Shown: one piece after another, positions 36,957 to 51,423 of the stretch | Position numbering within the stretch: the stretch's first letter is position 1 | Layout of the letters: each line of letters starts with the position of its first letter | NCBI RefSeq assembly: GCF_002355735.1 | Contig: NZ_AP014879.1 | Span: 1,240,001-1,304,000, forward strand | DNA: 64,000 nt | DNA from: Sulfuricaulis limicola | GTDB taxonomy: Bacteria; Pseudomonadota; Gammaproteobacteria; Acidiferrobacterales; Sulfurifustaceae | Direction: 5' to 3' | Made by a program: the position numbers and the translations under genes | Notes under the pieces: model-generated | The model's input: only the letters and a program-made list of their open reading frames with translations | Databases searched by the model: none | What the model was told of the DNA's origin: nothing

Positions 36957-36978
36957 GCACTCACCTTATGATGGATGG

Positions 36979-37078
36979 AACCGCGGATGAACGTAGATGA
37001 ACGCGGATCAAAAACCCCGAACAGTTGATATGGGGCTCTTGTTTTTAAATCTGCGTTTATCTGCGTTTATCTGCGGTT
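36979..37078. repeat. Palindromic repeat, family E
   Basis: AACCGCGGATGAACGTAGAT on the left and repeated CTGCGTTTAT units ending ATCTGCGGTT on the right, with an ACCCCGAAC/GGGGCT inner stem and T-rich stretch. It lies between dsrP and dsrN, inside the dsr operon, and might cause partial termination before dsrN. Confidence 0.85.
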
Positions 37079-37094
37079 TCAAAAATATTAAAAA

Positions 37095-38333
37095 TCAGGC
37101 CGTGGCGGCTTGCGGCTTGGCAGCATCGGCCTTGTAGTGAGGATCGGCCGCGGCGTCCGACAGGCTCTGCGGGAGGAACGGCAGCACCCGCATGGCGAAG
37201 GCCGCCATGAACAGCGCCAGCCCGATACCGCCGATGCCGAGAACCACCTCGGGCAGGGTCGGCTTGTAGACTGTCACCACGCCGTCGAAGAAACTGCTGC
37301 TGACGATCTCTTTACCGGGATAGAGCGGCATCGGGTAGGCCTGGCCGCCGATAATGATGACGTAGATCTGGGCCAGCCCGCCGAGGACGACCAGAATGGC
37401 GGCCAGCGTGACCAGCGCCCGCGACTTGCCGAGTCCGGAGAACAGAATCACCAGCGGGATAACGCCGCCGACGAGGACCTGGCCGAGCCAGAACATCTGC
37501 GTGTATACGCCGCCGTGCAGCAGGATAAAGCCCTCGACCCCGTGGCGCTGGGTGATGTACAGGTTGGTCAGGTGATAGACGGTGACGAAATAGAGCACCG
37601 CGGCGACGAACACGCCCAGCAGGTTGCGCAGGCGGCCAAACACGACGTCGCCCAGTTCGCGCCCGGTCCAGCGCATGCCGGCCATTAGCACCATCAGGAA
37701 TATCGCCAGCCCGAACTCGAAGGACATGATGATGAACATGGGCGCGATGATTGCCGAGTTATAGGCCTCGCGCGCCACCAGGAAACCGAAGATGGAGCCG
37801 GTACCGGTAGTGAGGGTCAGGCGCCAGACGAACGCCAGCATGCCGACCGGTTTGCTGTAATCGTTCATGCGCCGCTCCATCATCATCCACAGATAAACGA
37901 TGACGATGCCGAAGAAACCCATATACAGGTAGATGTTCCAGGCAAAGATGGACTTGAAGTTGTAATAGGTCATGGCCTCGATCAGGCGGTCGGGCCGCCC
38001 AAGGTCCAGCACCAGGATCGCCAGACCGCCGGCGAGCAGGGTGATCGCCAGCAGGCCTGAAAGGCGCGCCAGCGGCTTGTACATCTGGCGACCGAAAACC
38101 GAGGCAATCGAAGCGACGTTGAGCGCGCCTGAAGCCGCCACGATCAGGAACACCGCGAAGACATGCGGCAGGCCCCACATGACCTGGTTGGACATGCCGG
38201 TGATCCAGTGGCCGTGGTGCTCCATGTACAGGGCGGCACCGAGTCCGGCGAGGGTGATGCTGCCGAGTATGCCCAGCACGGCATAGAAGCCGACGCTGCG
38301 GGGCCCGATGGTTCCGTATTGCATATGTGCCAT
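37095..38333 (-). CDS. dsrP: DsrP, NrfD-like membrane subunit
   Basis: Integral membrane quinone-interacting subunit of the DsrMKJOP complex. The 412 residues hold about ten hydrophobic helices and the NrfD/PsrC pattern, including ILDLGRPDRLIEAMTYYNFKS and the WMMMERRMNDYSK loop. It follows dsrO by 3 bases. Within the complex DsrJOP is thought to exchange electrons between the periplasm and the quinone pool. C-terminal tail (SDAAADPHYKADAAKPQ) is polar and probably cytoplasmic. Confidence 0.93.
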   Translation of the reverse strand: MAHMQYGTIGPRSVGFYAVLGILGSITLAGLGAALYMEHHGHWITGMSNQVMWGLPHVFAVFLIVAASGALNVASIASVFGRQMYKPLARLSGLLAITLLAGGLAILVLDLGRPDRLIEAMTYYNFKSIFAWNIYLYMGFFGIVIVYLWMMMERRMNDYSKPVGMLAFVWRLTLTTGTGSIFGFLVAREAYNSAIIAPMFIIMSFEFGLAIFLMVLMAGMRWTGRELGDVVFGRLRNLLGVFVAAVLYFVTVYHLTNLYITQRHGVEGFILLHGGVYTQMFWLGQVLVGGVIPLVILFSGLGKSRALVTLAAILVVLGGLAQIYVIIIGGQAYPMPLYPGKEIVSSSFFDGVVTVYKPTLPEVVLGIGGIGLALFMAAFAMRVLPFLPQSLSDAAADPHYKADAAKPQAATA

Positions 38334-38336
38334 GCG

Positions 38337-39062
38337 TCAAATCCCCCGATAACGCACGCCGGTGTTGAGATTCAGGTCCGGGCGCAGTTGAGTGCTGGGT
38401 GCGGACGCGAGCTGTTTGGTGATCGCGCTGTTCGGATCCTTGAGGTCGCCGAAGACCATGGCCTGGTTGCCATCCTTGTTGCAGGCCTCGACGCAGGCAG
38501 GGATCTTTCCGGCGTCCACGCGGTGCACGCACAGCGTGCAGGACTCGACCGTGCCCATGCCGCGCGGGGCGTGGGGTTTCTGCTCGGTGGTTTTCTCGTG
38601 CACGAAAGAGCGCGCCTTGTACGGACAGGCCATCATGCAGTAACGGCAGCCGATGCAGATGTGCTTGTCCACCAGCACGATACCGTCGGCGCGCTTGAAC
38701 GAGGCGCCGGTGGGGCAGACATCCACGCACGGCGGATGTTCACAGTGCTGGCACATGACCGGCAAGGTTTGCACGTAGCCGGTCTGCTTGTCCTTGAGGG
38801 TGACCTTGCGGATCCACTGCGCGTCGGTAGCCGGGCGCCCGTGCGACTGGATGCCGTTTTCCTCGTGACACGCGGTCACGCAGGCGTCGCAGTCGTGGCA
38901 TTTGCCGATATCGACGAGCAGGCCCCAGCGTTGCAGGCTGGTCACTGCCTCGTCGGGCGAGCGCGCCTGCGCCAGCTCGACCAGGCGCAGCCCGGGCGCG
39001 AGCGCCGTGGCGGCGGCCGCGGCGCCGCCGATGGCGATGAATTCGCGACGATTGAGACTCAT
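38337..39062 (-). CDS. dsrO: DsrO, periplasmic iron-sulfur protein
   Basis: Ferredoxin-like subunit of DsrMKJOP carrying several [4Fe-4S] clusters. A Tat signal (MSLNRREFIAIGG) directs folded export. Cys motifs follow in order: CHDCDACVTACHEEN, CQHCEHPPCVDVCPTGA, CIGCRYCMMACPYKA and CTLCVHRVDAGKIPACVEAC, the usual four-cluster arrangement of the PsrB/HmeA type. 241 residues. Its ATG overlaps the dsrJ stop by four bases and dsrP follows at once. Confidence 0.95.
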   Translation of the reverse strand: MSLNRREFIAIGGAAAAATALAPGLRLVELAQARSPDEAVTSLQRWGLLVDIGKCHDCDACVTACHEENGIQSHGRPATDAQWIRKVTLKDKQTGYVQTLPVMCQHCEHPPCVDVCPTGASFKRADGIVLVDKHICIGCRYCMMACPYKARSFVHEKTTEQKPHAPRGMGTVESCTLCVHRVDAGKIPACVEACNKDGNQAMVFGDLKDPNSAITKQLASAPSTQLRPDLNLNTGVRYRGI

Positions 39063-39496
39063 GGTTTCACCCCTGTGGCCGGTTTCGGCGGCGGCAGCGT
39101 GGCGAGGGCGGCCTTGTCTGCCTTGTCGGTATGGCAGCTGAAGCAGTCGATCTTGACCGAGGCGTACTCATGGCAGGAGGCACAGAAGCCGTCCTGGCCG
39201 AGCACGCTGCCGGTGACCGGATCGGCATGACAGTCGACGCAGTTCTTGAGGCTGTGTTTCGCGGTGCGGATGCCCTGGTGCATGGTCTTGTCGCGCTGGT
39301 GCAAGATGACCTTCATGTGGTTGCGCCGCATGTACCCGGTGTCTTCCACGCACTGCTCGCCGCGGTGGATTTTCACCACCGGACCGGGGCCGCCGGATTT
39401 GGCTGCTGAATCCGTGGCCCGCACCATGCCGACCGCGAACAGACCCGCGGCCAGCGCCGCGATTACACCGGCAATGATTGTCGTTTTGCGTCTCAC
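39059..39496 (-). CDS. dsrJ: DsrJ, triheme cytochrome c
   Basis: Periplasmic or membrane-anchored c-type cytochrome of the DsrMKJOP complex. An uncleaved signal-like helix (about residues 5-25) is followed by three CxxCH sites: CVDCH, CASCH and CFSCH. In Allochromatium one heme has unusual His/Cys ligation; a lone Cys in the region QCVEDTGYMRRNHM here fits that. 145 residues. Placed between dsrL and dsrO as in other sulfur oxidisers. Confidence 0.94.
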   Translation of the reverse strand: MRRKTTIIAGVIAALAAGLFAVGMVRATDSAAKSGGPGPVVKIHRGEQCVEDTGYMRRNHMKVILHQRDKTMHQGIRTAKHSLKNCVDCHADPVTGSVLGQDGFCASCHEYASVKIDCFSCHTDKADKAALATLPPPKPATGVKP

Positions 39497-39524
39497 GCCT
39501 TCAGCCCTCGCGCGTACCGGATAT

Positions 39525-41531
39525 TTAGTGATCGCCGCCCATGCCCATCTTGATGTAGCCGGTGGGACAGACGTCGGCGCAGATGTGGCAACCGATGCAC
39601 AGATCGTAATCGGTGTACACGTAACGGCCCATGGTCGACTCCGTCTTGGGCGTGCGCTTGACCGCCGTCTGCGGGCAGTAGATCACGCAGTTGTCGCACT
39701 CGAAGCACATGCCGCAGCTCATGCAGCGCTTGGCTTCGTCCACGGCCTGTTTCTCGTCCAGGCCGAGCATGCGTTCCTTGAAGTGACCCAGCACCTCGTT
39801 GGCGTCCGGCACCATCTCGGTGCGCTTCAGGCGCGCCGTGTACTGGAAATGTCCAAGGAACAGCTCGTTCGACTGGCACACCTCGGCGTCGGAGCGGTCC
39901 TCGAAGTTGTGGATCGCGTAGCCGCCGACGGCCTTGCCCTGTTCCGAGGTGCCGCGCAGGCCGCGATCGATTCCACGCTCGGTTTCAGGACCATCCGGCT
40001 TGAATTCCTTCGGCGTCAGGCCGACCTCGTTCAGCTTGGCGAGCAGGTTGAAGTGGTGCACGTCCACCTTCGGGCGCTTGCTCATTTCCTCTTTCTTCAG
40101 GTAATGATCAATGCTCTCGGCGGCGATCGAGCCCTGACCGATCACGGTGGTGAGCAGGTGCGGGCGAATGATATCGCCGCACACGAAGTAGCCGGGCTTG
40201 CCGGGCACCTGGTAGAACTTGTCGGAGTTGATCAAGCCCTTGCCGTTGTTGAAGTCTTCCATGCCGCGGAAATCGCCCATCTGGCCGATGGCGGAAACGA
40301 TGAGATCAGCCTCGATATTCTTTTCTGTGCCCGGTTTTTCCACTGGCGGGTTGGCCGAGAAGTCGAGCTCGACGACGCGCAGCGCCTTGGCGCGGCCGTT
40401 GCCGTCGAGAATGACTTCCTTCGGTTGCAGCGAGCCCTGGATGACCACGCCTTCGCGCTGGGCATCATCGATTTCATGCTTGGCGGCGTTCATCTTTTCC
40501 ACCGGCTGGCGCGAGATCAGCATGACGTCGGCGCCTTCCTTCCGCGCCGTGACCGCCACATCGTGGGCGGTCTGGCCCATGACGACGTATTCCGGACGCT
40601 CGGTTTCGGCCATTTCCTTGATGTAACCGAGGCGGCGCGCCACCGAGACCACGTCGATGGAGGTGTCGCCGCCGCCGATCACGACCACGCGGCCGGACAC
40701 GGCTTGCAGGCGGCCCTGGTTGAAGGCCTCGAGGAAGGCCACACCGGTGATGCAGTTCGGCGCGTCCGCGCCGGGAACGGGCAGGGCGCGGCCGGACTTG
40801 CAGCCGATGGCGAACAGCACGGCGTCGTGCTGTTTTTCCACGTCCTTCATCGGCACGTCCACACCGACGCGGGTTTTGAGCTTGACCTCGACGCCCATGC
40901 TGGTGATGCGATTGATTTCGCCGTTCAGCGTTTCGCGCGGGAGACGATAGCCGGGCACGCCATACTTGGCCATGCCGCCGAGCTCGGCGTGATCGTCGAA
41001 CAGCGTGACCGCATGACCCTTGAGACGCAGATGATAGGCTGCCGCGAGGCCGGCCGGACCGCCGCCGATGACGGCGACTTTCTTGCCGGTGGACTTTTCG
41101 GCCGGCTTGAAGCTGTACTTGTTCTGGAGCGCGGTGTCGCCGATGTATTGTTCGACGGCATTGATGCCGACATAGTCCTCGACCACGTTGCGGTTGCAAC
41201 CCGTCTGGCACGGCGCCGGGCAGACGCGACCCATCATGGATGGGAAGGGATTGGCCTGGGTCAGGCGGCGGAAGGCGTATTCCTGCATGGCCATGTCTTT
41301 CTGCGGCTTTTCGATGCCGCGCACGATGTTCAGCCAGCCGCGGATGTCCTCGCCAGAGGGGCAGCTCGCCTGGCAGGGCGGGGTCTTGTGCACGTAGGTC
41401 GGGCACTTGTCGGTCTCGTCGGCCGTGAAAATGCGCGATTGCAAGGAGGGCCATTCCTGGTCACCGTCCTTGTACTTGCGGAAGGTGAAACCGGCCTTGA
41501 CCTCTTTTGCCTTGTCTGCGGGAGTTGCCAT
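39525..41531 (-). CDS. dsrL: DsrL, NAD(P)H-linked iron-sulfur flavoprotein
   Basis: Glutamate-synthase-beta-like oxidoreductase that links DsrAB to NAD(P)(H). The 668 residues show an N-terminal Cys-rich domain (CQASCPSGEDIRGWL, CPAPCQTGCNRNVVED) for clusters, a FAD motif VAVIGGGPAGLAAAYHLR near 150, an NAD(P) motif VVVIGGGDTSIDVVSVARR near 290, and a C-terminal ferredoxin with CMSCGMCFECDNCVIYCP and CIGCHICADVCP. Strong family match; its place between dsrK and dsrJ is the classical order. The ATG has a purine-rich leader (AGGAGA). Confidence 0.95.
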   Translation of the reverse strand: MATPADKAKEVKAGFTFRKYKDGDQEWPSLQSRIFTADETDKCPTYVHKTPPCQASCPSGEDIRGWLNIVRGIEKPQKDMAMQEYAFRRLTQANPFPSMMGRVCPAPCQTGCNRNVVEDYVGINAVEQYIGDTALQNKYSFKPAEKSTGKKVAVIGGGPAGLAAAYHLRLKGHAVTLFDDHAELGGMAKYGVPGYRLPRETLNGEINRITSMGVEVKLKTRVGVDVPMKDVEKQHDAVLFAIGCKSGRALPVPGADAPNCITGVAFLEAFNQGRLQAVSGRVVVIGGGDTSIDVVSVARRLGYIKEMAETERPEYVVMGQTAHDVAVTARKEGADVMLISRQPVEKMNAAKHEIDDAQREGVVIQGSLQPKEVILDGNGRAKALRVVELDFSANPPVEKPGTEKNIEADLIVSAIGQMGDFRGMEDFNNGKGLINSDKFYQVPGKPGYFVCGDIIRPHLLTTVIGQGSIAAESIDHYLKKEEMSKRPKVDVHHFNLLAKLNEVGLTPKEFKPDGPETERGIDRGLRGTSEQGKAVGGYAIHNFEDRSDAEVCQSNELFLGHFQYTARLKRTEMVPDANEVLGHFKERMLGLDEKQAVDEAKRCMSCGMCFECDNCVIYCPQTAVKRTPKTESTMGRYVYTDYDLCIGCHICADVCPTGYIKMGMGGDH

Positions 41532-41580
41532 GGTGAATCTCCTGTCTTGATTCAGTTACTCAAAAATGTCGTTTGGGTAA

Positions 41581-43074
41581 TCACTGTTTCGCGTTCAGCA
41601 CGATGGCATTGCTGACCAGTCCGTGAACGCTTTGAATCATGTCCATCGGAAGCTTGTAGTAGGGCACGATCTTGGTGAACTGGGCCTTGCAGATGGCGCA
41701 AATCGCAGCCATGTGCGTGACGCCGTGTTCTTCGATGACGTCCTTGAGCGCCTGCATGCGCGGCATCGCGCCCTTGATGCGCAGGTCGATCAGCTCGTCC
41801 GTGAGAATGCCGCCACCGCCGCCGCAGCAGAAGGTGCCTTCGCCGATGGTTTCGGGCGCCATGTCGTGGAAGTGGTTGCAGGTGGCCTTGATGATCTCGC
41901 GCGGAATGACGAACTGTCCGCCCGGCATGTTGCCCATGCGCGAGGCGCGCGCGACGTTGCACGAGTCATGGAAGGTGACGACCTTGTCGTCGTTGGCGCT
42001 CTTGTCGAACTTGAGCGCGCCTTTCTGGATCAGGTCGTAGGTGAACTCGCAGATATGCTGCGGCACCGGGTAGCGCGGATCCAGAAAATCGAACGGACCG
42101 ATCAGCGTGTTCCAGAACGAGTAGGCGACGCGCCAGGCATGTCCGCACTCACCCACTACAATACGCTTGACGCCCAAGTCGAGCGCAGCTTCGCGGATGC
42201 GCATGGCGATCTTGTGCAGATTCGCGGACGAACCCACGAACATGCCGAAATTGCCGGCCTCGGAGGCGTGCGTGGACAGCGTCCAGCTGACGCCGGCGGC
42301 ATGGAAAACCTTGCCGTAGCCGATCAGGCCGTCAACGTGCGGTTCGGCGAAGAAGTCCGCCGACGGCGTTACCAGCAGCACCTCGGCGCCTTTCACATCC
42401 AGCGGGTATTTCACGTCCACGCCGGTATCTTCTTTGACGTCTTCCTCGAGACCCTCCAGCGTGTTGGCCAGCGCCGGTCCCGGCAGACCGAGGTTGTTGC
42501 CGATCTTGTGGACCTTGACCAGGATTTCGTTGGTGTATTTCTGGCCCTGACCGATCGAGTCCATGACTTCGCGCGCGGCCATGGAGATCTCGGCGGTGTC
42601 GATGCCGTAGGGGCAGTACACCGAGCAGCGACGGCACTGCGAGCACTGGTGGAAGTAGCTGTACCACTCGTCCAGCACTTCCTTGGTCATGTCGCGCGCG
42701 CCGACCAGCTTGGGGAAAAATTTGCCGGCGAAGGTGAAATGGCGGCGGTAGACGCTGCGCAGCAGGTCCTGGCGCGCCACCGGCATGTTTTTCGGGTCCG
42801 AAGTGCCGAGATAATAGTGGCACTTGTCGGTGCAGGCGCCGCACTTCACGCAGGAATCGAGGAACACCTGCAGGGCGCGTGACTGGGAGACCAGCTCGCC
42901 CAGCTTGGTGACGGCCTTCTGTTCCCAGCCCTCGACCAGCTCGCCGGGGAAACCCAGCGGTGTGTTGTGTTCGGGTTTTGAGACATAGGGTTTCGAGCCC
43001 ACCATCGAGTCGGGCTCGAGGTGCGGCACCTTCATGTATTCGCCGAGGACGGGTGCTTTGACTTCCGTGGCCAT
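41581..43074 (-). CDS. dsrK: DsrK, HdrD-like iron-sulfur subunit
   Basis: Cytoplasmic catalytic subunit of DsrMKJOP, thought to act on the DsrC trisulfide or disulfide. Two ferredoxin motifs, CVKCGACTDKCHYY near residue 73 and CSQCRRCSVYCPYGID near 145, are followed by CCG-type domains with DSCNVAR near 370 and FCCGGGGG near 415 that build the special [4Fe-4S] site of heterodisulfide reductases. 497 residues, with dsrM 5 bases upstream. Confidence 0.95.
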   Translation of the reverse strand: MATEVKAPVLGEYMKVPHLEPDSMVGSKPYVSKPEHNTPLGFPGELVEGWEQKAVTKLGELVSQSRALQVFLDSCVKCGACTDKCHYYLGTSDPKNMPVARQDLLRSVYRRHFTFAGKFFPKLVGARDMTKEVLDEWYSYFHQCSQCRRCSVYCPYGIDTAEISMAAREVMDSIGQGQKYTNEILVKVHKIGNNLGLPGPALANTLEGLEEDVKEDTGVDVKYPLDVKGAEVLLVTPSADFFAEPHVDGLIGYGKVFHAAGVSWTLSTHASEAGNFGMFVGSSANLHKIAMRIREAALDLGVKRIVVGECGHAWRVAYSFWNTLIGPFDFLDPRYPVPQHICEFTYDLIQKGALKFDKSANDDKVVTFHDSCNVARASRMGNMPGGQFVIPREIIKATCNHFHDMAPETIGEGTFCCGGGGGILTDELIDLRIKGAMPRMQALKDVIEEHGVTHMAAICAICKAQFTKIVPYYKLPMDMIQSVHGLVSNAIVLNAKQ

Positions 43075-43079
43075 GTCGC

Positions 43080-43826
43080 TTACCCCGCTGCCTTTTTGGT
43101 GTTATCGATGGCTGCGCTCCAGCCGGCAACCCAGCGTTTCTCGCGCGAGTTGTCCACCTGGTTGCGGGTGGGGCTGAAGAACACGCCCGGGGCGTGCAGC
43201 AGCTTGCTGACCGGGAAAATAATCATAAGTGTCGCGACCAGGGTCAGGTGCACCAGCAGGGCCGGATCGGCCGGCAGCGGCTGCAGGCTGAACGACATCA
43301 GGCCCAGGAAAAAGGCTTTGAGGCTGACGATATCCGTGTGAAACAGGAACTTCATGGAGAGGCCGCTGGCCCCGATGCCGACCAGCAGTGCCAGCATCAG
43401 ATGATCGGACAGGTTGCTGATATAGCGCACGCGATCCACCAGGAAGCGACGCCCCCACAGTCCGAGCAGGCCGAGCACCATGCCATAGCCGGTGAAGTTG
43501 ATGAACCACTGGAGCCAGGACAGGAAAAACGGAGATGGTTCGATGAAGTAACGCAGGTGCCACGTCAATTCCACGAACAGACAGAGGTGGAATATCCAGC
43601 CGAACAGCCAGGTCCACTTGTTCGACTTGAACAGGCTTTCGAACACGGTGACTTCGCGCACCATGCGCGCCGCCACCCCCAGACGTGTGGTCGGTGCCGG
43701 TGTGGTAGGGATTTTCAACGGCTGCGGTGTGCGCGCGTAGATGAAAATCTTGCGCGCCACGCCGATGACGAGGATAGCCGTCGCTATGTAAAAAAGCAGC
43801 GCATAAATCACTGTCACAGCCGACAT
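43080..43826 (-). CDS. dsrM: DsrM, NarI-like cytochrome b subunit
   Basis: Membrane diheme b-type subunit that connects DsrK with the quinone pool. The 248 residues have five or six hydrophobic helices with His residues in helices 3 to 5 (CLFVELTWHLRYF, LSDHLMLALLVG, LVHLTLVATLM) for heme ligation. Length and helix plan match NarI-like DsrM. dsrC precedes it by 62 bases, dsrK follows closely. Confidence 0.93.
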   Translation of the reverse strand: MSAVTVIYALLFYIATAILVIGVARKIFIYARTPQPLKIPTTPAPTTRLGVAARMVREVTVFESLFKSNKWTWLFGWIFHLCLFVELTWHLRYFIEPSPFFLSWLQWFINFTGYGMVLGLLGLWGRRFLVDRVRYISNLSDHLMLALLVGIGASGLSMKFLFHTDIVSLKAFFLGLMSFSLQPLPADPALLVHLTLVATLMIIFPVSKLLHAPGVFFSPTRNQVDNSREKRWVAGWSAAIDNTKKAAG

Positions 43827-43888
43827 CGATGACCCCGCTGTTGCTTGCCAGGCGGTATGTTAACCCCGCCCGGCAGGCCGGTAATTGA

Positions 43889-44221
43889 TTAAACGCAACC
43901 GGTCGGTTTCGGCAGGCCGGCGTATTTGCACGCCTGCTTGGCCGGGCCGTACGGGAACAGCTCGTACAGGTACTTGCTGTTGCCTTTGTCCGGGCCGAGC
44001 TTCTTGCCGATGGCCTTGGTCAGCACGCGCACAGCCGGTGCGATTTGGTATTCCTCGTAATATTCACGCAGGAAGTTGATGACTTCCCAGTGATTCTGCG
44101 ACAGTTCGCAGTTGTCGACCTTGGCCATTTCCTTGGCAACTTCCTCGCTCCAGTCGGTACGGCTGGCGAGATATCCTTCCTCGTCGGTTTCGATGGATTT
44201 ACCCGCTACAGTGATAGGCAT
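43889..44221 (-). CDS. dsrC: DsrC, sulfur-carrier protein with two redox cysteines
   Basis: Small carrier that receives sulfur from DsrEFH and presents it to DsrAB as a trisulfide. 110 residues. The flexible C-terminal arm ends ACKYAGLPKPTGCV: the penultimate Cys and a second Cys 11 positions before it are both present, which makes this a true DsrC and not a TusE (one Cys). A paralogue without either Cys is encoded at 51085-51423. Preceded by dsrH and followed by dsrMK. Confidence 0.96.
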   Translation of the reverse strand: MPITVAGKSIETDEEGYLASRTDWSEEVAKEMAKVDNCELSQNHWEVINFLREYYEEYQIAPAVRVLTKAIGKKLGPDKGNSKYLYELFPYGPAKQACKYAGLPKPTGCV

Positions 44222-44259
44222 ATGAGTACTCCTCGTCAGTTAAAGAAATAAAATTGATA

Positions 44260-44565
44260 TTAAAGCCAGGATTGCACGCTGGGGTATTCTACCGCCAGAT
44301 CCACAAACCCGCTGTAGTCGACGAGCTTGATGCCGTCGATAACCCGGTCCTGCATCCCGCGTGCTTCGAGATCGGGATAAAGCGCATAGATCGGATGATG
44401 CTTGAGCGCCTGCTCGACCAGCTTGGTGCTCACGGTGCCCTTCAGGGCGCCATAGACGCCGTCCTCGATCAGCAGCACGGCGCAGCCCTTCTTGAGGTGC
44501 TTGAGGCAGCTCTCCAGGGTGTTACGTTCGGTGGGCGACTTGTTTACGGTATGCAGCATCGTCAT
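44260..44565 (-). CDS. dsrH: DsrH, TusB homologue
   Basis: Third subunit of the DsrE2F2H2 sulfur transferase. 101 residues with Cys20 in NTLESCLKHLKKG, the position of the conserved Cys in the family, and LLIEDGVYGAL. It lies 5 bases after dsrF and 38 before dsrC, so is translated with its partners. Confidence 0.93.
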   Translation of the reverse strand: MTMLHTVNKSPTERNTLESCLKHLKKGCAVLLIEDGVYGALKGTVSTKLVEQALKHHPIYALYPDLEARGMQDRVIDGIKLVDYSGFVDLAVEYPSVQSWL

Positions 44566-44570
44566 TTCCC

Positions 44571-44978
44571 CTAAAAGCTCAGAACCACGTCTTGCGACTC
44601 CATAAGGTCCGCCATCTCCTGCGTGCTGATAACCTTCACCGGAACAATGAAGTCTTCCTCTTTCAGGCCGCGGACCTCCATGGATTCCTTCTCCACGTAC
44701 AGCTTTTCGATGTCGTAGCCTTCCAGCGCGCGATAAGTCGGCGAAAAATTCTTGACGTCGATCGTCCTGGTATGCTGGCCCTTGATGATCTGGTACACGC
44801 CGTCATCCAGGAACGCCAGGCTCACGTCCTGGTCGAACGCCGCCGCGATCAACACCACTTCCAGGGACTCCAGGGCATAAATCGTCCCGTAAGGCGCCTT
44901 GCGGTTGATATACAGGAACTTCTTTATCTTGCCGCTGGTGTCTTCTTCCATCTCGATGCCGCCAGTTACTTCGGTCAT
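44571..44978 (-). CDS. dsrF: DsrF, TusC homologue
   Basis: Structural subunit of DsrEFH. The 135 residues contain the RKAPYGTIYALESLEVVLIAA segment typical of TusC/DsrF and LAFLDDGVYQI. No conserved sulfur-binding Cys is seen, as expected for DsrF. Located between dsrE and dsrH. Confidence 0.93.
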   Translation of the reverse strand: MTEVTGGIEMEEDTSGKIKKFLYINRKAPYGTIYALESLEVVLIAAAFDQDVSLAFLDDGVYQIIKGQHTRTIDVKNFSPTYRALEGYDIEKLYVEKESMEVRGLKEEDFIVPVKVISTQEMADLMESQDVVLSF

Positions 44979-45002
44979 TCCACTTACCTCGATAGTTCCG
45001 GG

Positions 45003-45365
45003 TTAATCGCCAAATGTCACCAGCCGGTCCGACTGGATTCCCGATTCGATCAGCTGCCCCAGGCCGGAGATGCGGAAACCTTCCTGGAGATTTTCATCCT
45101 TGATGCCGCGACGCAACGCCGCTGCCACGCATACCACCAGATCGATGCCATGGTCCTTGGCCAGCTTCTGCCAGCGATTGACGATATGACGATCGTCCGT
45201 CGGCGGCTCGGTGAGCCGGCTCGAGTTGTAGACGCCGTCGTGGTAGAAAAACACGCGGCTGACTTTGTGTCCCTTCTCGATGGCGGCCTTGGCGAACAGG
45301 TAGGCCGTGTCTGAGGCTTCGTGCGTGTACGGCCCCTCATTGATCAAAATACCGAACTTCATCAT
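45003..45365 (-). CDS. dsrE: DsrE, TusD homologue with persulfide cysteine
   Basis: Active subunit of DsrEFH. Two ATG codons stand at the start; from the second, the conserved Cys in LVVCVAAALRRGI is residue 78, the position known to carry sulfur in Allochromatium DsrE. Other family segments: FGILINEGPYTHEASDTAY and VFFYHDGVY. 120 residues. It follows dsrB by 93 bases. Confidence 0.94.
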   Translation of the reverse strand: MMKFGILINEGPYTHEASDTAYLFAKAAIEKGHKVSRVFFYHDGVYNSSRLTEPPTDDRHIVNRWQKLAKDHGIDLVVCVAAALRRGIKDENLQEGFRISGLGQLIESGIQSDRLVTFGD

Positions 45366-45458
45366 CGTTCCCCTTGATATTTATCAACAACCCCCGACGA
45401 TTTACGGGCCGACGCCGGGAAAAACCCGGCGTCGGATACGGCTATACGTGCTGGCGTG

Positions 45459-46538
45459 CTAGAAACGGATATGCGCCGACTGGTTCAGCATGTGACGCGA
45501 GCCGCGCCAGTTGTCGATGTGGAACTTGGTGAACGGCAGTTCCGTCAACTCGAAGAAGCGCGGCCAGCCGATGCGCTCCACCCAGTCTCCGATGCGTTCC
45601 CAGTCCTTGGCGTCTTTTTTGTAGACCTTGAGGATCTTCTTGACGATGGTGCCGGCTTCCGGCCAGCGCGGCGGATTGTTCGGTACGCCCGCGGCCACCA
45701 GCTTGTGGAACATCGGCTTCGAACGGGCGTTCGAATTCTTGCCACCGACCCAGATGGCAAGCTTGGAATGCTCCGGGTCGTTGATCTGCATCGGCGGGCA
45801 GGGCGGGAAGCACGCGCCGCAGCAGATGCATTTCTTCTCGTCGACTTCGAGTGACGGCTTGCCGTTGACCATCGCGGGACGAATCGCCGCCACCGGGCAG
45901 CGCGCCACGACCGAGGGACGCTCGCAGATGTTGGCCACGAGATCGTGATTGATCTTCGGCGGCTTGGTGTGCTGCACGTTGATCGCGATGTCGCCCTGAC
46001 CGCCGCAGTTGATCTGGCAGCAGGAGGTGGTGATGTGCACGCGGTTCGGCATGTCTTCCTTCACGAATTCCTCGTGCAGGTCGTCCATCAGCGCCTTCAC
46101 CACGCCCGAGGCGTCGGTGCCGGGGATGTCGCAATGCAGCCAGCCCTGGGTGTGGGAGATCATGGTCACCGAGTTGCCGGTGCCGCCGACCGGGTAACCG
46201 GCCTCTTCAAAGGCCTTGATCAGAGGATCGACCTTGTCCTTGCTGGAAACCATGATTTCCATGTTGGAGCGAATGGTGAAGCGAACATAACCTTCGCCGA
46301 GCTTGTCGATGATGTCGCACAGCAGGTTGATTTCGTACGGACCGAGCTGACGCTGGGTGCCGACGCGCACGGTCCAGATCTCGTCACCGCTCTTGGCGAC
46401 GTGATGCAGCACGCCCGGACGCGGACGGTCGTGATAGGCCCAGTTGCCGTAGTTCTTGATCATCAGGGGATGCATGTACTGGAATGCATCCGGACACCCG
46501 CTTTCAATCGGGGGGCGCATTTTCGGTGCTTCTGCCAT
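45459..46538 (-). CDS. dsrB: Dissimilatory sulfite reductase beta subunit
   Basis: Beta subunit of reverse-type sulfite reductase (DsrAB), which oxidises DsrC-bound sulfur to sulfite. 359 residues. The siroheme/[4Fe-4S] site shows TSCCQINCGGQGD near residue 190, and the inserted ferredoxin domain shows CICCGACFPPCP near 245. The order CERPSVVARCP links the two. It follows dsrA by 57 bases. Assignment to the oxidative branch rests on the DsrEFH and DsrL genes in the same operon. Confidence 0.97.
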   Translation of the reverse strand: MAEAPKMRPPIESGCPDAFQYMHPLMIKNYGNWAYHDRPRPGVLHHVAKSGDEIWTVRVGTQRQLGPYEINLLCDIIDKLGEGYVRFTIRSNMEIMVSSKDKVDPLIKAFEEAGYPVGGTGNSVTMISHTQGWLHCDIPGTDASGVVKALMDDLHEEFVKEDMPNRVHITTSCCQINCGGQGDIAINVQHTKPPKINHDLVANICERPSVVARCPVAAIRPAMVNGKPSLEVDEKKCICCGACFPPCPPMQINDPEHSKLAIWVGGKNSNARSKPMFHKLVAAGVPNNPPRWPEAGTIVKKILKVYKKDAKDWERIGDWVERIGWPRFFELTELPFTKFHIDNWRGSRHMLNQSAHIRF

Positions 46539-46595
46539 GGGTCAATTCTCCAAAACGTTCGTTCGACGTGTATTCGATATCTTGCCGGAAACGGA

Positions 46596-47909
46596 TCAGC
46601 CCGCCGCCTGCTGCTTGCGGTTCTTCCACTTCTCCGCTTCCTGGTCCCACTCGTCCAGGCGGACGTAGGAGCTGGTGCGCGGGTGGTTGATCATGTTCGG
46701 ATCGACTTCGAGGCCGATGCCTTCGAGGAAGTTCGCCAGACCGATGCGTTCGATCATCTCGCCGCAACGCTCGTGCTCCAGGCCGTTCTCGGCCCAGAAG
46801 TCGATGGTGCTGGCGGCAATCTCGCGGATGCGGTCGTAGTCTTCGTCGGTTTCCAGCTTCATGAACGGGATGATCACGGTACCGAAGGTGTCGCCGATCT
46901 TCAGCGTGCGCTTGCCGCCGATGAGCAGGGTGATGCCCTTGTCGTCGCCTGGCTTGAGCGCCTTGGTCATGACGTTGATGCAGTGCATGCAGCGCACGCA
47001 GTTGCGGTTGTCCACGTCCAGGGTGTCGTCATCGTTCAGCGACAGCGCCTTGGTCGGGCAGCGCGCGACGACGTTGTCGACCACGTACTTGCGGCCCTTG
47101 GCCTTGACGAACGCCTTCACTTCCTTCTGGTCGACCTTCATGTTGTCGCGCCAGGTGCCGATGACGGAGAAGTCGGCGCGCTGGATCGAGTTCATGCAGT
47201 CGTTCGGGCAGCCCGAGACCTTGAACTTGAACTTGTAGGGGAGCGCCGGGCGGTGCATGTCGTCGATGAAGTTGTTGACGAGGGTGCGGTGAATCTTCTG
47301 CTCGTTGGCGCAGGACTGTTCGCAACGCGCCGCGCCGACGCAGGACATGCCGGTGCGCACGCAGGGACCGGCGCCGCCGAGATCCCAGCCGTACTCGTTG
47401 ATCTCGTCGAAGAAGTGCTGCGTGTTCTCGCTGGTCGTGCCGATGAACATGATGTTGCCGGTCTGGCCGTGGAACGCGATCAGGCCCGAGCCCCATTTGT
47501 TCCAGGAGTCGGACAACTGACGCAGCATCTTGGTGGTGTAGTGGTTGCCGGGAGCCGGCTGCACGCGCAAAGTATGGAATTCTTTCGCTTCGGGGAACAT
47601 GGGCTTGCCGTCGCTGCCCATGAGCTCGGTGAAACGGGGGATGATGCCGCCGCCGTAACCGAACACGGAGACCGTGCCGCCTTTCCAGTAGCCCTTGCGG
47701 GTGGTGTAGGAGTGTTCCAGCTGACCCAGCAGGTCGACCATCATGTTGTTGTTATGGGCCAGACGTTTCAGTCCGGTCACGAAGCTGGGCCAAGGCCCGC
47801 TCTCCAGTTGATCCAGCAAAGGCGTCTTGTGGAACGGCTTGGTGGATTTCTTTTCTTTCGGAATAAACGTGGAATGTTTTTCCGGGTTCTTCGGTTGATT
47901 CTGGGCCAT
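46596..47909 (-). CDS. dsrA: Dissimilatory sulfite reductase alpha subunit
   Basis: Alpha subunit of DsrAB; heads the operon. 437 residues. The siroheme-[4Fe-4S] motif is C-x5-C in CVGAARC near 204 and C-x3-C in SGCPNDC near 232; the ferredoxin domain has NCVRCMHCINVM near 310 preceded by ARCPTKAL. A strong ribosome site, TAGGAGGT, lies 8 bases before the ATG. The 376-base region upstream is shared with the divergent TauD-like gene and probably holds the main dsr promoter. Confidence 0.97.
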   Translation of the reverse strand: MAQNQPKNPEKHSTFIPKEKKSTKPFHKTPLLDQLESGPWPSFVTGLKRLAHNNNMMVDLLGQLEHSYTTRKGYWKGGTVSVFGYGGGIIPRFTELMGSDGKPMFPEAKEFHTLRVQPAPGNHYTTKMLRQLSDSWNKWGSGLIAFHGQTGNIMFIGTTSENTQHFFDEINEYGWDLGGAGPCVRTGMSCVGAARCEQSCANEQKIHRTLVNNFIDDMHRPALPYKFKFKVSGCPNDCMNSIQRADFSVIGTWRDNMKVDQKEVKAFVKAKGRKYVVDNVVARCPTKALSLNDDDTLDVDNRNCVRCMHCINVMTKALKPGDDKGITLLIGGKRTLKIGDTFGTVIIPFMKLETDEDYDRIREIAASTIDFWAENGLEHERCGEMIERIGLANFLEGIGLEVDPNMINHPRTSSYVRLDEWDQEAEKWKNRKQQAAG

Positions 47910-48003
47910 TTAAACTACCTCCTACGCGTCGAAGGATGTGTGTACATTCCGCCTTCCAGCCGTTTTTCTGCGCCGAAAGGTCCAAATTTCTGCCGCTTGA
48001 AAC

Positions 48004-48015
48004 CAGTAGCTACTG
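48004..48015. promoter_or_regulatory. Perfect 12-bp palindrome in the dsrA leader
   Basis: CAGTAGCTACTG is fully self-complementary and lies about 95 bases upstream of the dsrA start, between the candidate promoter and the gene. Its size suits a dimeric regulator. No regulator is identified. Confidence 0.4.
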
Positions 48016-48075
48016 AATGCTTGCGGAGGGGCAGTCTAAACCCGCCCCTTAATAAAAAAATCACACGTTAGAGAG

Positions 48076-48107
48076 AGCCCGTCCGGGCTTACCCCTCCCG
48101 AAAGGGA
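48076..48107. promoter_or_regulatory. Paired small hairpins between dsrA and the TauD-like gene
   Basis: AGCCCG-TC-CGGGCT (48076-48089) is followed by TCCC-GAAA-GGGA (48096-48107). On the + strand the second would form a GNRA tetraloop. They may be operators or RNA structures; their role is unknown. Confidence 0.3.
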
Positions 48108-48145
48108 TATAAATAGAAGCGTGCGACCACTGCGGGAAACCGTTT

Positions 48146-48151
48146 ATTATA
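48146..48151 (-). promoter_or_regulatory. Candidate -10 box for the dsr operon
   Basis: A perfect TATAAT on the - strand, about 237 bases before the dsrA start in an AT-rich stretch. The -35 region (GTATTT at 17-base spacing) is poor, which would fit an activated promoter. The remaining part of the 376-base intergenic region contains no gene. Confidence 0.4.
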
Positions 48152-48285
48152 CATCTATCTGATTTGCAAAATACTATTGTCTTGTTAAAAACCGCGCCAT
48201 TGCTGGTATTTCAAACGCGGTTGCCACTTGTAAATCCCGTTCGAATATCCATTAACAGCATCAGTATTCCAGGGCGTTGTGAACA

Positions 48286-49224
48286 TTGAATAATCCGGCA
48301 AAGGCGGCACAGGCCAGTCACAGCATGAGTCCGTTTTACGTCGAGAACGAAGCGGCTTACCGGCGCTGGCGCACCGCCAAACTGGAGCGTTATCCCGCGA
48401 CGGCGGAGGAACTGGTGGTGCCGGTGGATAATCCGCTGGCGCTCACGGAGGCCGAGGCCGAGACGATGCTGAACATCTGTCGCAAAACCAACATGGTTAT
48501 CTACGCCAGCCGGGTGAAACGGGAAGACAAGGAAATCCCGCGCGCCGTGGGCGGGCGTTTCGGGCTGCATCGCCTCGACAGCAACATGCTCGCGGACGAT
48601 GACGGCATCAGCTTGCTGCAGGTGGTGCCGGGAAAATCGCAACGCGGTTACATTCCGTATTCCGACAAGCGCCTGTTGTGGCACACGGACGGCTATTACA
48701 ACAGCGCCGACAACCGCATCCGCGCGTTCGTGCTGCATTGTGTGTCGCCGGCGGCGCAAGGTGGCGAGAACAGCCTGCTGGATCACGAGATCGCCTACAT
48801 CCTGATGCGCGACGCCAATCCGGATTACGTCAGGGCGCTGATGGCGCCGGACGCCATGACCATTCCGGCCAACACCGAGGGAGGCAGCGAAACGCGCCCG
48901 GCGGTGACCGGCCCGGTGTTTTCCGTGGATCCGGCCGGCGGTAACCTGCACATGCGCTATACCGCGCGCACGCGTTCCATCGAATGGAAGCAGGATGCGG
49001 CCACGCGCGCGGCAGTGCAGTTCCTGGAAAACCTGCTGGCCGGTGCATCGCCTTACGTGTTCCGGCACACCATGGCGGCGGGGCAGGGCCTGATGTGCAA
49101 CAATGTGCTGCACAACCGCACCGCCTTCACGGATGACGCGGGCCGGGGGATCGCCCGGCTGGTATACCGGGCGCGTTATTACGATCGCGTTCGCGGGACA
49201 AACTTTAACGAGACGGGACACTGA
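48286..49224 (+). CDS. TauD/TfdA-type 2-oxoglutarate dioxygenase
   Basis: Fe(II)/2-oxoglutarate oxygenase of 312 residues from a TTG at 48286, or 299 from an ATG at 48325; no ribosome site decides. The iron-binding HTD is in LLWHTDGYY near residue 128, the distal His is probably in VLHNRTAF near 280, and the 2OG-binding Arg near 293 (ARLVYRARYY). Segment FGLHRLDSNMLADDDGIS is well conserved in look. It faces away from dsrA and starts a + strand cluster with a Cas6-like and a DsrC-like gene. Substrate is unknown; taurine is only the family name. Confidence 0.8.
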   Translation: MNNPAKAAQASHSMSPFYVENEAAYRRWRTAKLERYPATAEELVVPVDNPLALTEAEAETMLNICRKTNMVIYASRVKREDKEIPRAVGGRFGLHRLDSNMLADDDGISLLQVVPGKSQRGYIPYSDKRLLWHTDGYYNSADNRIRAFVLHCVSPAAQGGENSLLDHEIAYILMRDANPDYVRALMAPDAMTIPANTEGGSETRPAVTGPVFSVDPAGGNLHMRYTARTRSIEWKQDAATRAAVQFLENLLAGASPYVFRHTMAAGQGLMCNNVLHNRTAFTDDAGRGIARLVYRARYYDRVRGTNFNETGH

Positions 49225-49427: not shown

Positions 49428-49435
49428 TATTTTTG

Positions 49436-49453
49436 AACCGCCAAGACGCCAAG
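49436..49453 (+). repeat. Family D half-repeat
   Basis: AACCGCCAAGACGCCAAG matches the left arm of the family D repeats, without the mirrored right arm. It lies between the 65-residue gene and the following gene and would be read as coding if a later start were not chosen. Confidence 0.8.
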
Positions 49454-49471
49454 ATTTTTAAGAGTCAACTC

Positions 49472-50179
49472 ATGAAATACCTCAAAGACGAAAGTTTCAG
49501 GATGGACATGGACAGCGCGGAAGACGTCCAGGAATCCGCCGTGCTGCTCGAAGCCCAGCTGGCGGAGTTCCGGCGCCAGATGCTGGAGCTGCCGCCCAAC
49601 TACGATCCGCTGGCGCGCGCCGACCTGCTGCTGCAAATCGGACGCACCCTGATACGGCTGGAAAAAAACCAGGACGCCTGGGACGCCGGCCGCGAGGCCT
49701 TCGATATTTTCACGGCGCGCGAGGCCTGGGAAGGCGCGGTGCAGGCCTGCGACATCATGTTCCTGGCGGACCAGCCGGAATCGCTCCCGGCGCTCGGGCA
49801 GGGCATCTGGCTCACCGTCACCTTTCCCATGGACCCGGAGCTGTCGGTGGCGATGTTGCAGCACGTGGTGGACGAGACCCCACCCGATTCCGACGGCGCC
49901 GCGGTGGCGGCGACGGTGGCGCACTATATAGTCGACCTGCGCGCCGAGGGGCGCCAGCGCGAAGACCTGATGTTTTACACCAACCAGTTGCTGGCGACGG
50001 TGGCGCGGCGCCACAGCGATGCGCAGAACCAGGAGGCCTTCAGCCGCTGGTTCAAGAAGCTCGAACTCGACGACCCGGCAAAGTTCCTGCCGCGCCTGCG
50101 CAATGTGGTGGACGTACTGGTGCAGGATGAGTGGTGGATCGACCGCGACGCGATCCACGCGAAGCTCCCGGTAAATTGA
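49472..50179 (+). CDS. Helical protein of unknown function in the dsr-flanking cluster
   Basis: A 235-residue, acidic, largely alpha-helical cytoplasmic protein. Helix pairs such as ARADLLLQIGRTLIRLEKNQ and AWDAGREAFDIFTAREAWEG (residues about 48-90) look like tetratricopeptide units, which would make it a scaffold. Trp-rich spots (FSRWFKKLELDD, DEWWIDRDAIH) are near the end. I start at the ATG at 49472 because the upstream 13 codons are family D repeat. I recognise no named family; its neighbours are a TauD-like oxygenase and a Cas6-like protein. Confidence 0.65.
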   Translation: MKYLKDESFRMDMDSAEDVQESAVLLEAQLAEFRRQMLELPPNYDPLARADLLLQIGRTLIRLEKNQDAWDAGREAFDIFTAREAWEGAVQACDIMFLADQPESLPALGQGIWLTVTFPMDPELSVAMLQHVVDETPPDSDGAAVAATVAHYIVDLRAEGRQREDLMFYTNQLLATVARRHSDAQNQEAFSRWFKKLELDDPAKFLPRLRNVVDVLVQDEWWIDRDAIHAKLPVN

Positions 50180-50187
50180 AAATTTGA

Positions 50188-50284
50188 ATAGACAGGATTA
50201 ACAGGATTTACAGGATTTAAGACATGAAAATTTATGTACCGTGCGCCTTTTTATATCCTGTTAATCCTGTAAATCCTGTCCATT
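50188..50284. repeat. Palindromic repeat, family F copy 2
   Basis: GACAGGATTAACAGGATTTA on the left and TTAATCCTGTAAATCCTGTC on the right, as at 23541. It fills the gap before the Cas6-like gene. Confidence 0.85.
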
Positions 50285-50310: not shown

Positions 50311-50994
50311 ATGTTCTGGCAAGAAGCCAAAGAGAATGAGCACTACATCGTCCCGGACGATGTCGTGGATCTGGTGTTCAGCATCCAATGCCGTTGCCTG
50401 CCGGTGGATCATTCCTATGCGTTGTCGCAGGCCATTGCCGCGGCGCTTCCCTGGTTCGCCGACGAAGCGCATGCCGGCCTGCACACCATTCACGTGGCGG
50501 AGTCCGGCAACGGCTGGATGCGCCCGGACGATCCCAAGGCCCTGTTGCACCTGTCGCGCCGCACCAGGCTCATGCTGCGCCTGCCCCGGCAGCGTCTCGC
50601 GGACGCCGGCAAGCTGACCGGCCAGACGCTGGATGTCGGCGGCCACGCCATGCGGGTGGAAAAAGCCGTGGTCAAGCCGCTAAGCGCGATTACCACGCTG
50701 TTCTCGCGTTACATCGTTGCCGGTGAAGGCCTGGACGAAATGGCTTTCCTGCGCGAGGTGCAGGCATTGCTGGCCGACATGGGGATCAAGCCGAAAAAGA
50801 TGCTCTGCGGCATCGAGCACGTCATCGCCACGCCCGAGCGGAAAATCCATACGCGCAGCCTGATGCTGGCGGACCTGGACGTGGCGGAATCGGTACGGCT
50901 CCAGCAGCGGGGACTCGGCCCGTGGCGAACGCTGGGATGCGGGTTGTTCCTGCCGCACAAGGATATCAATGAAGTCCGGCCGGTGCTGGATTAA
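50311..50994 (+). CDS. Stand-alone Cas6-family protein (Cmx6-like)
   Basis: A 227-residue protein resembling the Cas6 family called subtype MYXAN or Cmx6. It has the ferredoxin-like (RAMP) opening VVDLVFSIQCRCLPVDHSYAL near residues 18-40, a His-rich stretch (AGLHTIHVAES) near 55, KPLSAITTLFSRYIV near 122, and near the end the Gly-rich loop GLGPWRTLGCGLFLPHKDI, a hallmark of Cas6 RNA endonucleases. No CRISPR array, cas1, cas3 or Cascade gene is in the window. Neighbours are a DsrC-like protein 90 bases downstream and a helical protein upstream. It may process or bind another RNA; that is inference. Confidence 0.75.
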   Translation: MFWQEAKENEHYIVPDDVVDLVFSIQCRCLPVDHSYALSQAIAAALPWFADEAHAGLHTIHVAESGNGWMRPDDPKALLHLSRRTRLMLRLPRQRLADAGKLTGQTLDVGGHAMRVEKAVVKPLSAITTLFSRYIVAGEGLDEMAFLREVQALLADMGIKPKKMLCGIEHVIATPERKIHTRSLMLADLDVAESVRLQQRGLGPWRTLGCGLFLPHKDINEVRPVLD

Positions 50995-51084: not shown

Positions 51085-51423
51085 ATGAGCTATGAGCTTA
51101 ACGGTAAAACCATCGATACCGACGCCAACGGTTTTCTGAAAAACACCGAAGACTGGAGCAAGGACCTGGCCGAGCATATCGCCAAGCTGGAGGGCATTGC
51201 GCTGACCCAGAAACACTGGGACATCATCGAATACCTGCGCGACGCCTATTTCAACAACAACGGCGAACAGCCCAACACCCGTCACATCGTGAAGGCGATG
51301 GCGGACAAGTGGGGCACCAATGTCATCCAGAAGGACGTGTACGATCTGTTTCCGAAGGACCCGAGCAAGCAGGGCGGACGCATCTCCGGCCTGCCCGAAT
51401 CGCGCCGCAAGGGCGGCTATTAA
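51085..51423 (+). CDS. DsrC/TusE-family protein lacking both redox cysteines (RspA-like)
   Basis: A 112-residue DsrC homologue: SYELNGKTIDTDANGFLKNTEDW matches the DsrC opening (shown as SYELNGKTIDTDANGF and LKNTEDW), and LTQKHWDIIEYLRDAYFNNNGEQP the middle. The C-terminal arm is GGRISGLPESRRKGGY with no Cys; indeed I find no Cys in the protein. Family members of this kind have been grouped as RspA, with proposed regulatory roles. A good GGGGAA purine run precedes the ATG. Located after the Cas6-like gene and before a rhodanese. Confidence 0.88.
   Translation: MSYELNGKTIDTDANGFLKNTEDWSKDLAEHIAKLEGIALTQKHWDIIEYLRDAYFNNNGEQPNTRHIVKAMADKWGTNVIQKDVYDLFPKDPSKQGGRISGLPESRRKGGY

Follow-up and report, generated by a model that had tools for sequence, protein, structure and literature searches.

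Cas6 enzymes are known as makers of CRISPR guide RNAs, and the question raised by this locus of Sulfuricaulis limicola is what a protein of this family does beside the genes of Dsr sulfur oxidation. In the window (the whole stretch of DNA that was analysed, 64,000 nucleotides), the open reading frame of 227 amino acids described in the sequence-only reading was found to be present (Table 1). The protein was matched by Pfam PF09559 (Cas6) at 214.2 bits against a curated cut-off of 26.7 (E 2.1e-63) and by NCBIfam TIGR02807 (cas6_cmx6) at 129 bits against a cut-off of 98.85, and the Cas6 models of PADLOC concurred (best E 2.6e-61). One PF09559 match was found in the source genome. A sequence search of solved chains with E up to 10 found 8fcj_B alone (E 1.5e-11). 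The AlphaFold2 model (57 homologues, pLDDT 88.4, pTM 0.84) was found to contain the RAMP fold of Cas6 (tandem ferredoxin-like), and its top solved structure was 8fcj_B, the Cas6 of a type I-B CAST (Foldseek E 5.9e-17), which VIA aligned at Z 24.7 and rmsd 2.0 over 196 residues with 24% identity. The first seven VIA rows bore the titles of Cas6, Cas6-related, RAMP or CAST Cascade proteins (Z 24.7 to 14.6). The family assignment, made originally from recognition, was borne out by the Pfam, NCBIfam and PADLOC profiles and by the fold match, the Cas6 model match and the RAMP fold both being present.

The dsr-linked protein is a variant of the known Cas6 family and not a new fold. It resembles the Cas6/Cmx6 of type I-MYXAN (TIGR02807, PF09559) in model scores over the cut-off, length and predicted RAMP fold as well as in His34 and the QxxGxG...GCGxF loop, but differs from it in its linkage to dsr within a genome in which no CRISPR-Cas was found. 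The Cas6 of type I-B CAST (8fcj chain B) is its closest solved fold, but belongs to a Cascade-transposon complex.

The dsr operon was found to occupy 35439-47909 of the minus strand, and the plus strand, divergent from dsrA, was found to contain tauD followed by the gene of a 248-amino-acid protein, cas6 and dsrC2. The sulfur-gene neighbours noticed from the sequence alone, including a DsrC-like protein without cysteines (DsrC2), were both found as operon and as paralogue. The dsrA profile matched the source genome at two places. For strain HA5, the cluster dsrABEFHCMKLJOPNR, a second dsrAB elsewhere and several dsrC homologues are reported in the available part of the text of PMC5024460; the operon beside the cassette is this same oxidative cluster, and the published dsr gene list includes the dsrC homologue SCL_1279, with Cas6 occurring 0 times in that part of the text. 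No Pfam match was found for the 248-amino-acid protein. Its AlphaFold2 model (pLDDT 88) contained helices only, and its best VIA rows were TPR proteins at Z 13.4, which lies at the edge of the range in which a match between helical proteins may reflect no more than a common arrangement. Downstream of a rhodanese gene, an NMO-like flavoprotein (PF03060) was observed at 52557-53804, with a homologue in just 6 of the 80 named loci (the best 80 of 551 relatives). Rfam at gathering scores gave one tRNA and nothing else in the window.

Table 1. Features of the cas6-dsrC2 cassette and the adjoining dsr operon, in positions of the window
Feature	Position	Strand	Basis
dsrM, dsrK, dsrL, dsrO, dsrP region	37095..43826	-	Pfam domains; names by family and published order (PMC5024460, available part)
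Canonical dsrC, two C-terminal cysteines	43889..44221	-	PF04358 157 bits; sequence
dsrH	44260..44565	-	domain match
dsrF	44571..44978	-	domain match
dsrE	45003..45365	-	domain match
dsrB	45459..46538	-	domain match
dsrA-dsrB intercistronic gap, 57 nt	46539..46595	-	no stable hairpin here, z +1.4
dsrA	46596..47909	-	TIGR02064 590.7 bits; NIR_SIR
Divergent intergenic region, dsrA / tauD	47910..48285	.	ORF coordinates
TauD-family Fe(II)/2-oxoglutarate dioxygenase	48286..49224	+	PF02668 E 1.4e-20
248-aa all-helical, TPR-like protein	49433..50179	+	AlphaFold2 model, VIA; homologue in 41/80 named loci
Cas6-family protein, dsr-linked type, 227 aa	50311..50994	+	PF09559, TIGR02807 and Cas6 fold
Codon of His34, presumed canonical Cas6 catalytic position after beta1	50410..50412	+	H in 125/125 dsr-type, 6/6 CRISPR-linked MYXAN
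Q198 to K217, Gly-rich loop and dsr-type PHK motif	50902..50961	+	alignment
DsrC2, cysteine-less DsrC-family protein, RKGGY tail	51085..51423	+	PF04358 113 bits

The reported lack of a CRISPR array and of other cas genes held for the window, in which no direct repeats of at least 20 bases spaced within 100 bases were found, and also for the source genome, a single contig of 2,864,672 bases, which gave no match to Cas1, no match to DevR/Cas7 and only sub-cut-off matches to cas3_core. No CRISPR-Cas locus was found elsewhere in this genome, and 0 CRISPR repeats are published for HA5 in the available part of PMC5024460. The array and cas genes that accompany a CRISPR-encoded Cas6 were accordingly not found in the source genome. 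For the relative Sulfurifustis variabilis, CRISPR repeats (6) are reported in the same part of that text, and the genome presumed to be of this species (G049) was found to contain a dsr-type cas6 beside dsrA and no match to Cas1.

The class survey was made on an even draw of 369 Gammaproteobacteria, with dsrA matched at E up to 1e-100 and Cas1 at E up to 1e-6. PF09559 was found in 118 genomes and dsrA in 115; both were present in 109, PF09559 alone in 9, dsrA alone in 6 and neither in 245. PF09559 was strongly associated with dsrA (odds ratio 495, Fisher p 2.5e-74) and not with Cas1, which was found in 132 of the 369 (odds ratio 1.36, p 0.20). Because the genomes are related, these p values imply more independence than there is, but Cas1 is subject to the same relatedness. 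The 119 cas6 rows of the 118 genomes were found to comprise 82 on one contig with dsrA, 28 (27 genomes) with dsrA solely on another contig and 9 with no dsrA. The two genes lay 662 to 4,511 bases apart in 80 of the 82 same-contig pairs, and all 80 were divergent with dsrA 5' of cas6. Among the named loci with enough flank to be counted, dsrA was found upstream of cas6 in 49 of 57 and a tauD-like gene upstream in 60 of 72. Within 1.6 kb downstream of cas6, 62 of 67 loci contained dsrC2, in 59 cases on the strand of cas6. This survey is not independent of the class survey because some named loci share genomes with the class draw. The usual cassette is dsrA, divergent from tauD, followed by the gene of the TPR-like protein, cas6 and dsrC2. 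The genome survey suggested in the earlier reading thus found cas6 beside dsr genes, tracking dsrA and not Cas1, a link much stronger than could have been seen from a single window. In a 'phylum' draw a match was found in 4 of 299 genomes, the source genome included and the other three in the same class; at the loci L182-L184 of this draw, which encode long-branch proteins, cas6 adjoins dsrA, tauD and a DsrC relative. Phage carriage of dsr-type cas6 was considered and rejected: viral contigs gave 42 pattern matches, none of them a relative, no dsr-type cas6 was confirmed in phage records, and comparison with the viral structure library returned a single weak match under E 0.001, with TM about 0.3.

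The same surveys bear on the reading of the protein as a CRISPR remnant, or as a trans-acting Cas6 that serves arrays elsewhere. It passes the TIGR02807 cut-off for the CRISPR Cas6 equivalog, Cas1 was also found in 48 of the 118 class carriers, and the carrier Sulfurifustis variabilis has reported repeats; the absence of any association with Cas1, the source genome without Cas1 and its published count of 0 all argue the other way. Only one genome among the matches listed (G293) was found by eye to contain Cas1 within about 25 kb of cas6, and its cas6 is also 1.6 kb from dsrA. The order survey gave PF09559 in 33 of 57 genomes and Cas1 in 7 of 57, both being present only in G029, G046 and G054. 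Five genomes of about 1.0-1.1 Mb were found to keep cas6 and dsrA with no Cas1 match, which speaks against a remnant, as does the quick tree, in which one branch (SH-aLRT 99; some rows have long branches) parts all dsr-type rows from the CRISPR rows and a Gloeobacter protein. Service to CRISPR, past or present, is accordingly considered extremely unlikely.

Exceptions to the linkage were found in both directions. In each of the nine class genomes that contained cas6 and no dsrA match, one or more further cassette genes were found near cas6; a cut-off dsrA stood at a contig end in two, and in one (L210) the dsrC2 gene was oriented the opposite way. Among the genomes with dsrA and no cas6, the contig ends less than 0.6 kb upstream of dsrA in G165, G126 and G008, and inside the homologue of the 248-amino-acid protein, at the expected place of cas6, in G178; the absence in G408 and G265 has no contig-end explanation. 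G001, a complete genome of 3.4 Mb from the genus of G008 and an order relative, was found to contain dsrA with neither cas6 nor the cassette in the 10.8 kb upstream, which is a true absence of cas6 despite dsr. The cas6 gene was found at least 41 kb from dsrA in G164 and G378 and on a contig other than that of dsrA in G280 and G359, with no cassette homologue nearby in any of the four. In G164 (L213:5680-9103; 1.45 Mb genome) it is divergent from rnc (RNase III) and era and lies by the gene of a thioredoxin-like protein. No dsr or cassette homologue was found within 8 kb of cas6 in three Beggiatoa relatives (L105, L131, L136), and at L096:5571-9132 cas6 and dsrC2 were found to adjoin dsrEFHC, the stretch between them giving no match to dsrA or dsrB. 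At L209:3009-5494, genes for a GAF histidine kinase, a LuxR-type response regulator and a rhodanese were observed directly after dsrC2, a possible sulfur-sensing unit in one genome.

The conserved residues were compared in an alignment of 122 non-identical proteins of the main dsr group, 3 long-branch dsr-type proteins and 6 CRISPR-linked MYXAN Cas6 from cyanobacterial plasmids with annotated cas genes alongside. Of eight plasmid matches, L066 was set apart, with no annotated cas gene nearby, and H8 was left out. The L066 gene (L066:3974-4765), a Gloeobacter plasmid gene annotated Cas6/Cmx6, clusters with a PAPS-reductase family protein and a cupin, and is perhaps another CRISPR-free Cas6. His34, which we take to be the canonical catalytic place of Cas6, was found to be conserved in 122/122 of the main dsr group, 3/3 long-branch proteins and 6/6 CRISPR Cas6. 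The Gly-rich loop GLGPWRTLGCGLFLPHKDI picked out from the sequence is real and conserved, its GCGxF part being common to the dsr-type protein and CRISPR Cas6, with H216 and K217 typical of the dsr type. R84 and E143 were found to be invariant in all 125 dsr-type proteins; R84 is present in 1/6 CRISPR Cas6 and E143 and H216 in 0/6. Position 217 contained K or R in all 125 dsr-type proteins and R in 1/6 CRISPR Cas6, and position 216 contained H in 110/122 of the main dsr group (Q in 12) and in 3/3 long-branch proteins. The main dsr group alone is marked by W69 with its surrounding loop and by K163 (119 K and 3 R of 122), and contained W3 in 122/122, a position aligned in 1/3 of the long-branch proteins. 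Compared with I-MYXAN Cas6, the dsr type thus has the extra conserved R84, E143 and PHK, to which the main dsr group adds the GNGWxRP loop and K163. From the residue and tree comparison, the dsr-type Cas6 has retained the ribonuclease signature and gained one of its own.

A regulator that binds RNA and does not cleave it would also fit much of this pattern. The Cas6 fold would occupy an RNA hairpin and act on translation or anti-termination, with DsrC2 as an adaptor to Dsr proteins and the histidine kept for binding. The conserved basic residues and Gly-rich loop are consistent with this, as is the Asn that the solved type I-B CAST Cas6 (8fcj_B) has at the position of His34 in the phmmer alignment, and therefore members of the family can do without the histidine. 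The invariance of His34 in 125/125 is, however, stronger than binding alone would seem to need, and we regard regulation by binding as a doubtful but appreciable possibility.

The cysteines point to another use of the RAMP fold, off RNA, in which C27, C166 and C210 would do redox or persulfide-related work. C27 was found in 110/122 of the main dsr group and is replaced by Gly in 6/6 CRISPR Cas6, C210 was found in 121/122, and C166 in 84/122 and in 3/3 long-branch dsr-type proteins and 0/6 CRISPR Cas6. Against it, C210 is also present in 5/6 CRISPR Cas6, C27 is absent from the three long-branch proteins, and the catalytic His and the Gly-rich loop are better kept than C27 or C166, so that a redox protein appears quite unlikely.

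The neighbouring DsrC2 was found to belong to the DsrC family by PF04358 (113.2 bits against a cut-off of 24.9) and scored 100.9 bits with TIGR03342 (TusE/DsrC superfamily), but its 96.5 bits with the TusE equivalog lie below the cut-off of 191. DsrC and TusE relay sulfur via their cysteines. DsrC2 of the window contains zero cysteines; in its C-terminal arm both redox cysteine positions of DsrC are replaced (ACKYAGLPKPTGCV vs GGRISGLPESRRKGGY), the tail being RKGGY where DsrC has GCV. DsrC2 thus resembles DsrC/TusE (PF04358, TIGR03342) in its score over the family cut-off and differs in its lack of the redox cysteines and its KGGY tail. The RKGGY end was found in 69/69 DsrC2 homologues, 61 of them with no cysteine, 7 with one and 1 with two, and in 9/9 further DsrC2 loci, with GKGGY in 3/3 long-branch ones. 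The last C-terminal cysteine position is replaced in every DsrC2 relative aligned or tail-checked, and one of the three long-branch proteins (L184) still has a cysteine at the first position. RspA is a name for cysteine-less DsrC relatives, on which a literature search found no paper. Because the cysteines are gone, DsrC2 cannot relay sulfur like DsrC or TusE, and its role would be that of a docking protein or adaptor.

The link to tRNA thiolation suggested earlier, from the TusBCDE relay, is left unsupported by these cysteines, since the DsrC paralogue of the window and its aligned relatives lack both sulfur-relay positions. TusE acts with MnmA in the relay of sulfur to tRNA, and a comparable relay branch made of the Cas6-like protein and DsrC2 would agree with the superfamily score of DsrC2 and with the position of cas6 near dusA in G359 and beside rnc and era in G164. 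Set against the replaced cysteines, the first of which is kept in L184, and the low TusE equivalog score, tRNA modification is considered very improbable.

The gap between dsrA and dsrB was the candidate RNA substrate. In cas6-linked operons it measures 44-132 nt, and a GC-rich stem of at least 8 pairs was found in 29 of 57 of them, the window being counted and without a stem, against 1 of 8 second, unlinked dsrAB copies and 0 of 10 cas6-less genomes. In the cas6-less order genomes (L185-L195, 11 regions), dsrA and dsrB were found to overlap by 4 nt in 10/10 readable regions. The counts of 29/57 vs 1/18 gave a Fisher p of 0.0006, and those vs the eight second copies alone a p of 0.06, in a comparison that is confounded by kinship and carries no correction. 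L191, in which a contig end cuts the region, is out of the Fisher count and included in the comparison of folding z-scores, in which the 57 linked gaps did not differ from the nine others (Mann-Whitney p 0.43). The dsrA-dsrB hairpin was rejected as an obligate target, both for this lack of a difference and because it is missing from the window and L070, but remains a lead. The other gaps (cas6-dsrC2, dsrH-dsrC) folded no better than shuffles (mean z about 0). For A. vinosum on sulfide, the available part of PMC3397948, citing Grimm et al., gives dsrEFH and dsrC transcripts well above dsrA, as mRNA processing or internal promoters would give.

Just upstream of cas6, an imperfect 34-nt inverted repeat of ACAGGATT(T/A) units was found at 50187-50284. 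The element is dispersed: with up to 2 mismatches allowed, 51 matches to its half-site were counted in the genome. With 1 mismatch at most, it was present in 12/33 cas6-bearing order genomes vs 1/24 others (p 0.004), 8 of the 12 being one genus. Because it is absent from 21/33 cas6-bearing genomes and present in one genome with no cas6 match (G037), it was rejected as a general RNA target of cas6.

The protein is most likely a Cas6-family ribonuclease, or an RNA-binding protein, that would act in oxidative Dsr metabolism independently of CRISPR. It would bind and probably cleave a specific RNA, with the cysteine-less DsrC2 encoded next door as its putative partner. The target RNA would probably belong to the dsr locus, and the pair would therefore tune the level or stoichiometry of Dsr transcripts, the polycistronic dsr mRNA perhaps being cut between cistrons. 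Cutting of dsr mRNA is the leading idea and is unproven. A neighbourhood common to cas6 and dsr is not proof of a common function; that sulfur oxidation would be tied to the control of RNA is plausible. Our confidence is evenly balanced between yes and no that the protein represents a CRISPR-independent branch of Cas6 endoribonucleases, recruited as an accessory of oxidative (reverse) Dsr sulfur oxidation by the mechanism proposed. A bolder form, which is speculative and rather improbable, is that a Cas6 lineage left CRISPR and became, with DsrC2, a dedicated RNA-processing switch of lithotrophic sulfur oxidation, in which DsrC2 would sense the Dsr state via its KGGY arm, direct hairpin cleavage in dsr mRNA and set the ratio of DsrAB to DsrEFH/DsrC.

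No paper discussing a link between cas6 and dsr was found by searches with Cas6 and dsr terms in the literature open without subscription. In a figure legend of PMC10989796, cas6 is named among the coloured genes of dsr clusters of mangrove MAGs, the single mention of cas6 in the part of the text available. The available parts of PMC5728499, PMC5944118, PMC8226683, PMC5109826, PMC10952691, PMC4046663, PMC7540712 and PMC8889020 do not place cas6 with dsr genes, and a term search of the available text of PMC11406059, on the evolution of Dsr sulfur oxidation, gave no occurrence of Cas6 or CRISPR.

In the class surveyed, dsrA is almost constantly accompanied by a Cas6 family, which reduced genomes of about 1 Mb have retained; this suggests the recruitment of a Cas6-like protein to an RNA job in sulfur metabolism. 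An automatic annotation as 'CRISPR-associated protein' can conceal a sulfur gene. If the protein is an RNase, a component of CRISPR would have become a regulator of metabolism at the RNA level, and reverse Dsr, a major pathway of sulfur oxidation, could be tested directly for post-transcriptional control.
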